Origin: an uncultured Bacteroidia bacterium
GTDB taxonomy: Bacteria; Bacteroidota; Bacteroidia; Bacteroidales; UBA932
Reading direction: 5' to 3'
DNA length: 61,299 bases
Assembly (NCBI GenBank): GCA_902782225.1
Contig: CACZMF010000013.1
Coordinates: forward strand, 1-61,299
The position numbers and the translations under genes were made by a program. Numbering within the stretch: position 1 is the stretch's first letter; each line of letters begins with the position of its first letter. The notes below the pieces were generated by a model. It was not told where the DNA came from, did not search any database, and saw nothing but the letters and a program-made list of their open reading frames with translations. Shown here piece after piece: positions 1,345 to 6,596 of this stretch.

Positions 1345-2670
1345 ATGTCAGAACAATCTTCGAGTGGGAAAGCCCCTATGAGCGGGTGGCTGGCGGTGAG
1401 TCCGCTGATGGTGTTTCTTGTGGTCTATCTCGTGTCGTCGATCATTGCCGGCGACTTCTATAAGATTCCCGTGACGGCGGCGTTCCTCGTGGCTTCCGTC
1501 TATGCCATCCTGATCACACCCAGTCCAGGACCTGCCGGCGGCGGCTGGCGTTCGCGCTTCGACATGGACGGACGCATCTCCATTTTCTCCAGGGGAGCGG
1601 GGGATGCCAACGTGCTGATGATGATATGGATATTCGTGCTCGCAGGGGCATTTGCCGCCACCGCCAAAGAAATCGGAGCGATAGACGCCACGGTGAATTT
1701 CACCCTCCGTATCCTTCCTTCGCGCTTCCTGTTTGCCGGCATCTTCCTTGCCGCGTGCTTCATCTCGATGGCCATCGGCACCAGCGTGGGCACAATCGTG
1801 GCCCTGGTGCCGGTCGCCTCCGGACTTGCCGCACAGGTCGGAGCAAGCGTCCCGCTGCTGACCGCAATCGTCGTGGGCGGAGCGTTTTTCGGCGACAACC
1901 TTTCATTCATCTCCGACACCACCGTGGCGGCCACAAAGAGCCAGGGCGTGCAGATGCGGGACAAGTTCCGGGCGAACATACTCATCGCAGCTCCTGCAGC
2001 CGTGCTCGTGACCATAATCTACGTGATCATAGGCGGGGAAGTGGGCAAGCCGCTGGAAATCGCAGAGATAGAATGGGTGAAGATACTTCCGTACCTGATA
2101 GTTATCGGCCTGGCGCTTGCCGGCATCAACGTGATTGCAGTGCTGGCGTCCGGGCTTCTGGTGAACGGCATCATCGGAGTGGCGTGCGGGAGCTACGGAC
2201 TTGTGGGATGGATGGCTGCGGCAGGGGAAGGCATTGCCGGTATGGGGGAACTGATCATAGTCACGCTTCTGGCGGGCGGAATGCTGGACATCATCCGCCA
2301 CAACGGAGGCATGGAATTCATTATCAATGGATTGACACGCCGGATCAGAGGCGCGAAAGCGGCATCCCTGAGCATTGCGGCCCTGGTGTGCCTCGTGAAC
2401 GCCTGCACCGCCAACAACACCATCGCCATCATAACGACGGGCCCCCTTGCAAAGGACATCACGGAAAAGTTCAAACTGAATCCCAGCCGCACCGCCAGCA
2501 TTCTCGACACGTTCAGCTGCCTGATACAGGGAATCCTGCCTTATGGAGCGCAGATGCTGATGGCTTCCGGCCTTGCGGGAGTGTCGGCGGCCGCAATTAT
2601 CGGCCACCTGTACTATCCTCTGGCGCTTGGCGTCTTCGCCCTGCTCTCAATCCTGCTGCGGCGCAATTAG
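1345..2670 (+). CDS. NhaC-family Na+/H+ antiporter
   Basis: This 441-residue polytopic inner-membrane protein has about eleven hydrophobic segments. It belongs to the NhaC/ArsB-like ion transporter superfamily and would exchange Na+ for H+ in pH and sodium homeostasis. The signature GGAFFGDNLSFISDTT (near residues 177-192) is the conserved NhaC core. A second hallmark, VNACTANNTIAIITTGP (near 352-368), provides the polar residues of the inverted repeat. ATG 1345 was chosen over TTG 1336. The stop TAG overlaps the stop of the convergent gene by 4 bases. The substrate could be another cation or an amino acid pair, since NhaC relatives vary. Confidence 0.85.
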   Translation: MSEQSSSGKAPMSGWLAVSPLMVFLVVYLVSSIIAGDFYKIPVTAAFLVASVYAILITPSPGPAGGGWRSRFDMDGRISIFSRGAGDANVLMMIWIFVLAGAFAATAKEIGAIDATVNFTLRILPSRFLFAGIFLAACFISMAIGTSVGTIVALVPVASGLAAQVGASVPLLTAIVVGGAFFGDNLSFISDTTVAATKSQGVQMRDKFRANILIAAPAAVLVTIIYVIIGGEVGKPLEIAEIEWVKILPYLIVIGLALAGINVIAVLASGLLVNGIIGVACGSYGLVGWMAAAGEGIAGMGELIIVTLLAGGMLDIIRHNGGMEFIINGLTRRIRGAKAASLSIAALVCLVNACTANNTIAIITTGPLAKDITEKFKLNPSRTASILDTFSCLIQGILPYGAQMLMASGLAGVSAAAIIGHLYYPLALGVFALLSILLRRN

Positions 2671-3308
2671 AAACGCCAGCCCAGGCCTCCGTGGCCTAAG
2701 GTGGCAAGAGGACTGAGGGTGGCCTCGGCAAAGAAATACAGATGTTTGCCGCCGTACCTCAGGCCGACCGGCGTGATTCCGGGCACGGGGCAAACACCGA
2801 TCACGGAGTCAAGCGTCGAGAACAATCCTGCGCCCACAGCGGAATACACCGTCACCTTCCACTTGGGCGACCATATAAGCCTTGCCTGGCAATACAGGGT
2901 AAAAGTCGGGAATGGGGACTTGCGCCCCGCAGGGGAGCGCTTCTTGAGGTCATAGCGCGGCTTGCCCTGGGGGTCGACGCCGAAAGAATCGTATTGCACC
3001 ACGTCAATCACTTTCCAGCACACTCCTTCCGAAATGCACAAATCCCAGTGGGGGGCTACACGCCACACCTCCGTAAGAGTGAACGGCAAGCAGAAGGTAT
3101 CGGAATTTTTGACAAAGGCCATACCTTTCCGTGCCATCTCCAATTCTTCTGTCAGGGCAGGCGAGGCCATCATATGCAGGGGCTGGACGCCGGAGCTGAT
3201 TTCCAGCGAGAAACTCTTCCTGAAAGAGAGGGTGTCGTCCTCTGATGCTAAAGCAGGAATGCAGGCAGCCAGAAAAGCAGCTGTGCAAAAAAGAATCCTT
3301 GCTTTCAT
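2667..3308 (-). CDS. Exported, probably beta-barrel protein linked to the rSAM/lipoprotein cassette
   Basis: A 213-residue protein with an N-terminal signal peptide (KARILFCTAAFLAACIPALA, cut after ALA). The mature part has amphipathic strands and ends in GHGGLGWRF, a terminal aromatic like that of outer-membrane barrels. No named family is recognised. Its ATG overlaps the stop of the upstream lipoprotein gene as ATGA, so the two are translated together, and both diverge from the radical SAM gene. Several Cys are present (CLPF, CISEGVCW, CPVPG), unusual for a barrel. Context suggests that it acts with the lipoprotein in the envelope; the function is unknown. Confidence 0.65.
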   Translation of the reverse strand: MKARILFCTAAFLAACIPALASEDDTLSFRKSFSLEISSGVQPLHMMASPALTEELEMARKGMAFVKNSDTFCLPFTLTEVWRVAPHWDLCISEGVCWKVIDVVQYDSFGVDPQGKPRYDLKKRSPAGRKSPFPTFTLYCQARLIWSPKWKVTVYSAVGAGLFSTLDSVIGVCPVPGITPVGLRYGGKHLYFFAEATLSPLATLGHGGLGWRF

Positions 3309-3694
3309 TTCACGTCGCTCAATCTGACTTCTATGTCGCGCTCGCGAAGGTCGAACAGAACCGTATCCTTGGCCTCATAAGTGCCGGATGGGTCTTCAAA
3401 CTTCAGCCAGGGGCCTTGTGCATTCCTGTAATACGGAATGCTCACTTTGCAACGGCCCTCAGCATCGGTGACACCAAGTTCCTGATAATACTTGCCCGCA
3501 AAGTCATTGTCCGATCCGCTGATGACGACCCCTTTCAGGAGCTCTCCGCTGGAAGCGGAGCGGACGACAAATGTCATCGGCGCTTCTCCACGTTCATCGA
3601 ACATAGGGTTCTGCCCTGTCCCGTAGCAGGCCTGGAATATGAACAGGGCCGTTGACAACGAGACTCCTTTCAATAGATTATGCAACCATTTCAT
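3305..3694 (-). CDS. Radical SAM-associated putative lipoprotein
   Basis: A 129-residue lipoprotein with a basic, hydrophobic start and a lipobox-like FQAC at Cys 23, followed by YGTG. The body resembles the lipoprotein partner of the Bacteroidetes rSAM/lipoprotein system (TIGR04134 type). It has a small beta-sandwich with VVRSASSGELLKGVVI, a VTDAEGRCKVSIP turn typical of carboxypeptidase-regulatory-like folds, and a closing GTYEAKDTVLFDL strand. It is divergent from the radical SAM gene across a 69-base gap and overlaps the next gene by ATGA. The modification installed by the radical SAM enzyme, if any, is unknown. Assignment rests on recalled family features and the adjacent enzyme. Confidence 0.75.
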   Translation of the reverse strand: MKWLHNLLKGVSLSTALFIFQACYGTGQNPMFDERGEAPMTFVVRSASSGELLKGVVISGSDNDFAGKYYQELGVTDAEGRCKVSIPYYRNAQGPWLKFEDPSGTYEAKDTVLFDLRERDIEVRLSDVK

Positions 3695-3698
3695 AGCA

Positions 3699-3706
3699 CA
3701 AAAATA
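3699..3706 (-). promoter_or_regulatory. -7 box for the lipoprotein operon
   Basis: TATTTTTG on the minus strand ends 4 bases before the ATG at 3694. If initiation occurs at the usual distance from the box, the mRNA begins at or next to the start codon. Confidence 0.6.
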
Positions 3707-3751
3707 ATCTTTATTTGTCTATTAAATGCAAGAACCGACAAAATCTTGCAT

Positions 3752-3759
3752 TATATTTG
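3752..3759 (+). promoter_or_regulatory. -7 box for the radical SAM gene
   Basis: TATATTTG ends 4 bases before ATG 3764, again predicting a leaderless or almost leaderless message. It lies back-to-back with the lipoprotein promoter in the same short gap. Confidence 0.6.
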
Positions 3760-3763
3760 TGTT

Positions 3764-4822
3764 ATGAATAGTTTTTTATTCCGGCTCTTCCGGGAAAACG
3801 AGACCAGGGTGCACGAACTGAACTATCTGTTCTGGGAGTGCACGACAAGATGCAATTTCCACTGCCGTCATTGCGGCAGTGACTGCTCGGTGCTCAGCAG
3901 GGAAAAGGATATGCCGCTTGCCGACTTCCTCAGGGCGCTGGACACAATCCCCAAAGACCACAGGCCCGGGGATTTCACGGTCGTGCTGACCGGAGGCGAA
4001 CCGCTTATGCGTCCCGACCTGGCAGAAGCCGGCAGGGCCATACGCTCCCGGGGTTTCGGCTGGGGCATGGTGTCCAACGGATGGTTCTACGACGAGCGCA
4101 GGCACGCCGAGATGATGGAAGCCGGCATGAGGGTGATGACCATAAGTCTCGACGGGCTGGAAGAGGGCCATGACTGGATGCGTGGCGTCCCGGGCAGTTT
4201 CAGGCATGCCGTCCGCGCAATCGGCATCATGGCTGCCGAGCCCCGGCTCGTCGCCGATGTCGTGACCTGTGTCAACAAGCGGAACATAGGCGAGTTGCAG
4301 CAGATCTACGAGCTGCTGGCCTCCCTGGGCGTCCGGCAATGGCGTATTTTCACGATAATCCCGATAGGCCGTGCCGCCTCCGATCCGGAAATGCACCTGT
4401 CGGACGATGAATTCACCCTCCTGATGGACTTCATCCAGGCAAAGCGGGAAGCCGGCGGCCCGATGAAAGTCACGTTCAGCTGCGAAGGTTACCTCGGCCG
4501 CTACGAGGAGAAGGTCCGGGACACCCGGTATTTCTGCCACGCCGGAATCAACATAGCTTCCATCCTGATTGACGGCAGGATATGCGCCTGCCCCAACATA
4601 GACCGTGACCGTTTTTCGCAGGGCAGCATCTATGAAGACAATTTCTACGAAGTCTGGAACACCCGCTTCCAGCCTTTCCGTGACCGCGGCTGGGCCCGGA
4701 AAGGAATATGCAAAGACTGTAAAGAATGGCGCAACTGCCTTGGCAACGGCATGCACAACTGGCACGGCGACTGCGGGTCGGTGCTCCAGTGCCACTACCG
4801 GAAGACCCTCAAAGCCGGCTGA
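3764..4822 (+). CDS. Radical SAM enzyme of the rSAM/lipoprotein system
   Basis: A 352-residue radical SAM protein. WECTTRCNFHCRHC near residues 21-34 carries the CxxxCxxC motif that ligates the SAM-cleaving 4Fe-4S cluster, and VLTGGEPLMRPD is the SAM-binding GGE motif. The C-terminus is Cys-rich (RICACPN, GICKDCKEWRNCLGNG, CGSVLQCHY), as in SPASM-type auxiliary-cluster domains. It matches the Bacteroidetes enzyme that accompanies a small lipoprotein (TIGR04133 type). The lipoprotein and barrel-like genes diverge from it, suggesting one regulated unit. Start ATG 3764 is used because the radical SAM domain begins shortly after it. The stop overlaps the convergent phosphatase gene by 14 bases. 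Confidence 0.85.
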   Translation: MNSFLFRLFRENETRVHELNYLFWECTTRCNFHCRHCGSDCSVLSREKDMPLADFLRALDTIPKDHRPGDFTVVLTGGEPLMRPDLAEAGRAIRSRGFGWGMVSNGWFYDERRHAEMMEAGMRVMTISLDGLEEGHDWMRGVPGSFRHAVRAIGIMAAEPRLVADVVTCVNKRNIGELQQIYELLASLGVRQWRIFTIIPIGRAASDPEMHLSDDEFTLLMDFIQAKREAGGPMKVTFSCEGYLGRYEEKVRDTRYFCHAGINIASILIDGRICACPNIDRDRFSQGSIYEDNFYEVWNTRFQPFRDRGWARKGICKDCKEWRNCLGNGMHNWHGDCGSVLQCHYRKTLKAG

Positions 4823-5573: not shown

Positions 5574-6596
5574 ATGGAATGGGTCCAGAAAAGAGAACCG
5601 GCTATAGACCTGATGCGCTTCATCGGGCTTTTGATGATTGTTTTCGCCCATCTGGGCCTTCCGAATGAAAACGTTTTCTTCCAGATCAGGACCTTCGATG
5701 TGCCGCTGATGATTTTCGTGTCGGGACTGTCTTATTCCGGGCGGGACACCGGACCTTATCCGGCCTTCGTGTGGAAGCGGGCGAAGCGGCTCCTGATACC
5801 TCTCTACCTCTTCCTTGCCGGTTTTTTCCTTGTGCATTGGGCGTGCGCGGCCCTCGGATGGTCGGCCCCCATCCCGCCGGAAAAGATCTGGGGCTCGCTG
5901 AAACTCCGCCTGAATCCGTCCATCAATTTCGTGTGGATATTCAGGGTCTTCCTTATCGTGATGCTGCTGACGCCGCCTCTGGTGGCCCTCGAGAAACGCA
6001 TCGACAAGTGGTGGCTGGCCGTGCTGGTGTTTGCCGCCATGCTGGCGGGGCAGCATGGACTGATTGCCTGGCTCAAGCCCCTGAAACCCGGGCATTTCGT
6101 CAGTGACTGGCTGCTCTATGTCCTTGGCTACGGCAGCGTGTTCTTCCTCGGCCTGGCTTTGCGCAGATTCGACTTCAAGCGCGGCGTCGCGACCCTTGCC
6201 GTGCTCCTTGCCGCATTCATTCCCTTTGCGTTCAGCGTGGCAGCCGCTAAAGGCTCGTGGCTCAATATGCAGGCTTACAAGTATCCTCCGGGGGCATATT
6301 TTATTCTCTGGGGCGCCTTGTGCAGCACTGCTGTCTGGATCAGCCGCAAGGCCTGGCTGCCGGTGCTGAACCTCAGGCCGCTCCTGTTCATTGGCCAGAA
6401 CACGATCTGGATGTATCTTTGGCACATCGTTTTCGGATATCCCTGGTACCGTTCGGATGCGGTCCCGTATTTCTGGAAGTTCGTCTTTTTTTTCTTCGTG
6501 CCTCTGGTCATCGTGGTCCTGCAGCACCTTCTGGTCTGCCGGCTGGAAGGGAAGCATCCGGAATGGAAAAAGTATCTTGTGTATTTTAAAGGCTGA
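5574..6596 (+). CDS. Membrane acyltransferase (acyltransferase 3 family)
   Basis: A 340-residue integral membrane protein of the acyltransferase 3 family, which moves acetyl or other acyl groups onto sugars of surface glycans. The start EPAIDLMRFIGLLMIVFAHLG contains the family N-terminal helix with the MR(F/A)xG and conserved His pattern. About ten membrane segments follow, including a C-terminal NTIWMYLWHIVF helix. It resembles the fucose 4-O-acetylase group. ATG 5574 is chosen over ATG 5556 because the -7 box ends at 5567. The DUF2264 lipoprotein gene starts 5 bases after its stop, so the two probably share a transcript. The acceptor glycan is unknown. Confidence 0.8.
   Translation: MEWVQKREPAIDLMRFIGLLMIVFAHLGLPNENVFFQIRTFDVPLMIFVSGLSYSGRDTGPYPAFVWKRAKRLLIPLYLFLAGFFLVHWACAALGWSAPIPPEKIWGSLKLRLNPSINFVWIFRVFLIVMLLTPPLVALEKRIDKWWLAVLVFAAMLAGQHGLIAWLKPLKPGHFVSDWLLYVLGYGSVFFLGLALRRFDFKRGVATLAVLLAAFIPFAFSVAAAKGSWLNMQAYKYPPGAYFILWGALCSTAVWISRKAWLPVLNLRPLLFIGQNTIWMYLWHIVFGYPWYRSDAVPYFWKFVFFFFVPLVIVVLQHLLVCRLEGKHPEWKKYLVYFKG

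Follow-up and report, generated by a model that had tools for sequence, protein, structure and literature searches.

The described systems closest to the locus analysed here are the spliceases and a family of paired radical S-adenosylmethionine (SAM) enzymes and lipoproteins. The splicease PlpXY is described as excising tyramine at an XYG motif, with MYG and LYG as natural sites, and both FtsZ tags that it accepts contain YGLPI (PMC10533398); its PlpX component is given as a SPASM enzyme of IPR026482 (PMC11002830), and a review presents splicing as broadly distributed in bacteria (PMC10373908). For the second system, the TIGR04133 enzymes with their TIGR04134 lipoproteins, a search by family numbers and names, which did not cover Scott et al. 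2022, found no paper. We report here on a pair of this kind, joined by a third gene, in a window of 61,299 nucleotides (assembly GCA_902782225.1, contig CACZMF010000013.1, positions 1 to 61,299) from an uncultured bacterium of the Bacteroidales lineage UBA932.

Comparison with other genomes supports the family of the enzyme, a shared motif in its lipoprotein partners, the conservation of their signal peptides, the linkage of the genes and the restriction of the third gene to one clade. This comparative evidence is in line with modification of the lipoprotein ahead of its export, and YG is the likely site of enzyme action. We put at about even the chance that a splicease-like enzyme edits XYG in the not yet exported lipoprotein, most probably through excision of tyramine, which is, by analogy with PlpXY, the best single guess for the chemistry and an unproven one. 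The argument turns on the following features of the window:

3764..4822, plus strand: radical SAM/SPASM enzyme of the TIGR04133 family, 352 residues, cluster motif CNFHCRHCGSDC (NCBIfam TIGR04133, Pfam)
3305..3694, minus strand: lipoprotein, 129 residues, lipobox FQA/C (reading frame, relatives)
3629..3694, minus strand: signal peptide of the lipoprotein, MKWLHNLLKGVSLSTALFIFQA, proposed recognition leader (conservation across 630 pairs)
3620..3628, minus strand: C-Y-G codons, comprising the lipobox cysteine and the XYG motif, proposed modification site (motif counts)
2667..3308, minus strand: third gene, 213 residues, signal peptide, probable small outer-membrane beta-barrel, found in one clade

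The enzyme and its lipoprotein partner

The first-pass annotation had proposed these coordinates and reading frames and had described a TIGR04133-type enzyme paired with a lipoprotein. Both points are borne out: all three genes are real, and the enzyme scores 471.7 bits against NCBIfam TIGR04133, over the curated cut-off of 425. It is the single match to this family in its own genome; across the order, 87 of 393 sampled genomes have a TIGR04133 match that exceeds the cut-off. Its start is taken as 3764, the mechanical open reading frame (ORF) beginning at 3680; it carries CxxxCxxC and a SPASM domain, and its Pfam domains are Radical_SAM (PF04055), SPASM (PF13186) and a weak Fer4_12 only. The nearest protein in a search of solved structures was cytosylglucuronate decarboxylase, over the enzyme core.

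As the name of the family says, a small lipoprotein adjoins the enzyme gene, but the locus departs from the TIGR04133/TIGR04134 type in other respects. At E<=1 neither NCBIfam, including TIGR04134 (cut-off 39.8 bits), nor Pfam gives a match for its lipoprotein; its XYG sits at the lipobox cysteine, whereas in the TIGR04134 type the motif comes several residues later; and the gene order is divergent, with the third gene added. Relatives of the lipoprotein score 31-32 bits (L135, L138) or 106-109 bits (L176, L187) against TIGR04134, and their mature domain is weakly CarboxypepD_reg-like, below Pfam cut-offs. Judged through these relatives, the window lipoprotein is a divergent member of the TIGR04134 kin, and its earlier description as a lipoprotein of the radical SAM-associated type holds by that route, not by any match of its own.

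A YG motif beside TIGR04133 enzymes

The motif was counted at 60 loci of the order with 62 TIGR04133-type enzymes (54 loci over the cut-off, six below), and partner genes were picked by position alone, which gave 58 enzymes with a gene in front and 4 without. YG is present in 55 of the 58 partner genes and YGxP in 48; among size-matched control genes from the same loci, 11 of 306 have YGxP (Fisher p 4e-39). The ten genes without YGxP are those of L133, L143, L150, L159, L165, L171, L184 and L189, together with the partner of the lower-scoring enzyme at L136 and at L146; the gene in front at L165 is unlike a lipoprotein. At both L136 and L146 two TIGR04133 enzyme-lipoprotein pairs stand in tandem, with AKYGDIYD in the partner whose enzyme scores lower.

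In the window subgroup the motif follows the lipobox directly (FQA/CYG) in 36 of 36 homologues, a set found by similarity to a CYG-bearing protein, and YGxP is present in 31 of them, its proline not being invariant. TIGR04134-type partners carry the motif further into the protein (EYGTP, MYGTP), and some partners repeat it, L134 having three KYGxP and L182 and L183 two YG motifs each. One homologue alignment, in which CYG is invariant, was set aside as evidence, since the set had been selected for CYG, and the position-based counts were used in its place.

A search for DNA encoding FQACYG in 398 genomes of the same taxonomic family gave 100 matches, spread over 91 genomes; the reversed control gave 5. 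Thirty of these loci were examined: a lipoprotein with a signal peptide is encoded at 29, a whole or partial enzyme lies within 1.5 kb at 24, and the third gene is present at 7. A strong TIGR04133 match is present in 86 of the 91 FQACYG genomes versus about 107 of the 307 others (hand tally; p 3e-26). Within the window's own genome, ACYG sites gave 16 matches versus 22 for the reversed control, and by eye only the window site reads as a lipobox.

Conservation of the lipoprotein signal peptide

Across the 36 lipoproteins that are accompanied by the third gene (630 pairs), the 22-residue signal peptide has a mean identity of 76% versus 52% for the mature part, and it is the more conserved of the two in 627 pairs. 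When the same 36 are set against 17 CYG lipoproteins without the third gene, the signal peptide retains 68% identity and the mature part 25% (612 of 612 pairs). The third protein shows the reverse, with 28% in its own signal peptide versus 41% in its mature part, the former being more conserved in only 102 of 630 pairs. Synonymous differences are similar in both parts of the lipoprotein (0.53 in the signal peptide, 0.58 in the mature part), so that selection acts on the protein, and a cause at the DNA or RNA level is out.

In 5 of the 17 CYG lipoproteins without the third gene, the signal peptide and CYG[TS]P are kept and the mature part is a short acidic tail; more lipopeptides of this form were found among the loci from the FQACYG search. 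L298 (the same place as L355), L352, L366 and L370 hold tandem lipoprotein genes that have the signal peptide and CYGTP in common, the mature part being a short acidic tail in one gene and longer in the other.

Lipoprotein signal peptides are cleaved by LspA at the membrane. A sequence-specific reader of the peptide must therefore act earlier, which fits a cytoplasmic enzyme, and the conserved signal peptide, taken together with the XYG motif, suggests where and how the enzyme may act.

Comparison with spliceases

We take IPR026482 to be equivalent to TIGR04103, which is the second-best NCBIfam match of the window enzyme at 127.3 bits, its cut-off of 725 not being reached. Like PlpX, the window enzyme is a radical SAM/SPASM protein with an HCGS motif and with XYG in its putative substrate (CYG in the window), and splicease-like enzymes are the best profile match among those compared. 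Unlike PlpX, it falls far under the TIGR04103 cut-off, its substrate would be a signal-peptide lipoprotein that has no Nif11- or nitrile-hydratase-like leader match (Pfam and NCBIfam, E<=1), and its chemistry is read from sequence comparison.

Against ten splicease-like enzymes as a set, the TIGR04133 profile scored 435, and against two of them alone (L222 and L226) 337. Five NirJ2-type enzymes, at a depth like that of the L222/L226 pair, gave 210. Other radical SAM proteins, compared singly, gave no more than 169, 6 of the 13 single comparison proteins having been cut too short for use. By this measure the splicease-like enzymes give TIGR04133 its best alignment of all the groups compared. 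HCGS stands at the cluster motif in 28 of 29 TIGR04133 rows, in 7 of 10 splicease-like rows and in none of the 4 outgroup rows in which the motif was found.

Two of the splicease-like loci bear on possible substrates. L226 (genome G165, of the same order) has behind its enzyme an ORF (5915-6559) with six KYGYP repeats, which resembles a multi-core precursor, and L222 has two small YG peptides upstream, one of them a DUF1843 match. The L222 enzyme also matches TIGR04103 and TIGR04133 and scores 526 bits against TIGR03913 (rad_SAM_trio), under the cut-off of 592; that system differs from the window in its longer enzyme and in its small peptides, which have no lipobox.

Proposed mechanism and alternatives

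The reading that we favour would take the enzyme as a splicease-like radical SAM/SPASM protein and the lipoprotein as its substrate. In the cytoplasm, before LspA cleavage, the enzyme would read the conserved signal peptide as a leader and act on the X-Y-G that opens the mature protein (Cys-Tyr-Gly in the window, X being the lipobox cysteine), excising tyramine with a change of -135.068 Da (loss of C8H9NO). The edited lipoprotein would then be exported, lipidated and cleaved, and in the window's clade it would work with the co-translated small outer-membrane-type protein. We infer the modification of YG, the tyramine chemistry, this order of events, and the barrel with its role from the comparisons given here. 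In its most specific form, in which the signal peptide serves as a leader like those of ribosomally synthesized and post-translationally modified peptides (RiPPs), tyramine is excised beside the lipobox and the N-terminal lipid anchor comes to carry an alpha-keto amide, the proposal is tentative and in our judgement falls somewhat short of an even chance.

If true, it would make TIGR04133 a family of lipoprotein spliceases found throughout the order, whose substrates would be single, tandem or repeated and which would have a dedicated outer-membrane partner in rumen lineages, and a widespread enzyme family would gain a defined substrate residue and a predicted mass change. A lipoprotein signal peptide would be serving as a modification leader, and the product would be lipid-anchored with a reactive ketoamide, a group that has been tied to protease inhibition in spliceotides (PMC10373908, PMC11117315).

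A number of observations weigh against the splicease reading. With regard to the motif and its linkage, picking by position left 4 of the 62 enzymes without a gene in front, YG is absent from the partner genes of L133 and L189, the L171 lipoprotein reads CYA instead of CYG (its TIGR04133-like enzyme being below the cut-off), and the window's own motif is CYGTG, in which the proline of YGxP is replaced; 5 of 36 lipoprotein-third gene pairs have no enzyme in the adjoining stretch, two of these being contigs of about 5 kb. PlpXY is itself reported to work without its RiPP leader (PMC10533398). With regard to the enzyme, the TIGR04103 score of 127 is barely above those for TIGR04053 (118) and AhbD (116), and TIGR04103 ranks only fifth for L231. 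Not one of the ten splicease-like enzymes reaches the TIGR04103 cut-off or is a proven splicease; as a set they score 336-346 against the NirJ2-type enzymes (261 for L222 and L226 alone); only L222 and L226 among them have clear XYG partners, and no XYG partner was seen beside L225, L227, L228, L230 and L235. The C-terminal LYGTPPVP of the L224 partner was dropped as support, its homologues beside L223 and L236 having no YG. Distant enzymes on the TIGR04133 side of the tree (L232-L234) have no XYG lipoprotein nearby and no HCGS. That tree, of 47 enzymes, gives no sister relation between TIGR04133 and the splicease-like enzymes.

SPASM enzymes form several kinds of bond, and it is possible, if somewhat doubtful, that the enzyme modifies YG by a chemistry other than tyramine excision, such as a Tyr cross-link, oxidation, a beta-carbon bond or epimerisation. 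The distance to the splicease model (127 bits versus a cut-off of 725) and a tree that does not join TIGR04133 with the splicease-like enzymes, in a case where family and motif are secure, speak for such an alternative, as do the several other bonds described for SPASM enzymes (PMC8326336). Nonetheless, YG(x)P fits the known splicease site, and the profile scores higher for splicease-like than for NirJ2-type enzymes.

Two further alternatives move the target away from YG. In Bacteroidetes, the sorting signals of lipoproteins lie at the lipobox, precisely where the window motif is found, and four FQACYG genomes (G686, G760, G774 and G517) have no strong TIGR04133 match, so that signal peptide and CYG might be a mere sorting or lipidation signal, the enzyme acting elsewhere and the linkage being indirect. 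We regard this as quite improbable, given that YG lies away from the cysteine in TIGR04134-type partners (EYGTP, MYGTP), that the YG of L134 is repeated near the C-terminus, which a lipobox role cannot explain, and that motif and enzyme are strongly associated. The lipobox cysteine itself could also be the residue altered, for instance by oxidation as in sulfatase maturation or by a thioether, and the invariant cysteine right before YG in the window subgroup, a set selected for CYG, would agree with this. X is E, M, A or K in many TIGR04133 partners, however, and it is Y and G that they have in common, which makes the cysteine a very improbable target.

A clade-specific third gene

Within the same taxonomic family, 64 of the 398 genomes have a match to the third protein at E<=0.001. 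For each of the 36 copies that score 100 bits or more (the window counted), the gene immediately upstream encodes a homologue of the window lipoprotein; the two genes overlap by exactly four bases in 26, and an enzyme lies in the stretch read for 31, on the opposite strand in 27 and on the same strand in 4. In named genomes, a scan turned up 44 relatives, each from a metagenome-assembled genome; 25 are probably genomes already counted and 19 are new; the lipoprotein is directly upstream in 44 of 44 and an enzyme is in the stretch in 38, partial ones at contig ends included. By source, 22 are from ruminant hosts, 18 are RUG isolates, which we take to be from the rumen, and 4 are SRR bins. At L110 (genome G649), lipoprotein-third gene pairs flank one enzyme gene on both sides.

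The first-pass annotation had regarded the third gene as an added component of the system and had suggested looking for it beside other TIGR04133/TIGR04134-type pairs. No homologue was found at the 60 TIGR04133-type loci of the order (54 over the cut-off), nor at 20 further loci of the same family with the enzyme, which had been picked, except for G748 and G438, as having no third-gene match in the genome. The lipoprotein was found at 16 of these 20 loci and not at the other 4; in 15 it is on the same strand, in front of the enzyme, which is the arrangement in most of the order, and in one it is divergent. From its constant place behind the lipoprotein (36 of 36 and 44 of 44) and its absence from the 60 and 20 other loci it follows that the third gene, as far as gene neighbourhoods tell, is a clade-specific partner of the lipoprotein, dispensable for the enzyme-lipoprotein pair: the idea of an added component is upheld within the clade and does not extend to a general rule. 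That the pair works without it would also suit a mere hitchhiker with no part in the function of the modified lipoprotein. We consider this unlikely, since the lipoprotein is the immediate neighbour in both sets (25 of the 44 being probably the same genomes), the linkage persists when the gene order differs and when no enzyme is next to the pair, and the exact overlap recurs in 26 of 36 copies.

The third protein, which belongs to no known family, has no NCBIfam match at E<=1, its sole Pfam match is at E 0.31, and a search of solved structures gave nothing meaningful (two ribosomal matches, E about 0.8). Several sequence traits make a small outer-membrane beta-barrel likely: the signal peptide (recognised by eye), the F that ends 34 of 36 copies, an alternation in hydrophobicity, and a weak OMP_b-brl match in 1 of the 36 copies (E 0.0004). 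The alternation was measured as an amphipathic-strand score on a scale with altered values for W and Y, and 4 of 500 shuffles reach that score. From its linkage it may be an outer-membrane partner of the modified lipoprotein. The earlier account of an exported, barrel-like protein of 213 residues with several cysteines agrees with its length, its signal peptide and its likely fold; a role for the seven cysteines was rejected, as they are not conserved.

Organization of the locus

The enzyme and lipoprotein genes are divergent, with an intergenic gap of 69 bases (3695-3763), and the start codon of the third gene and the stop codon of the lipoprotein gene overlap within ATGA (3305-3308). The back-to-back -7 boxes noted in this gap, like the overlap, are present:

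3752..3759, plus strand: TAnnTTTG (-7-type) box ahead of the enzyme gene (sequence; scan of relatives)
3699..3706, minus strand: TAnnTTTG (-7-type) box ahead of the lipoprotein/third-gene pair (sequence; scan of relatives)

Each box lies four bases from the start codon of its gene. Two-way boxes occur in 16 of the 27 copies with an opposite-strand enzyme, the window counted, in a scan of relatives that had a reach of 60 bases in one direction and 160 in the other and no chance control. The surroundings do not look like a biosynthetic cluster, the neighbours being an antiporter, tRNA-Asp, a RelB/PIN pair, a PAP2 phosphatase, an acyltransferase and DUF2264; the RelB/DinJ-type antitoxin and the PIN-domain protein (292-1006) are a likely toxin-antitoxin pair.

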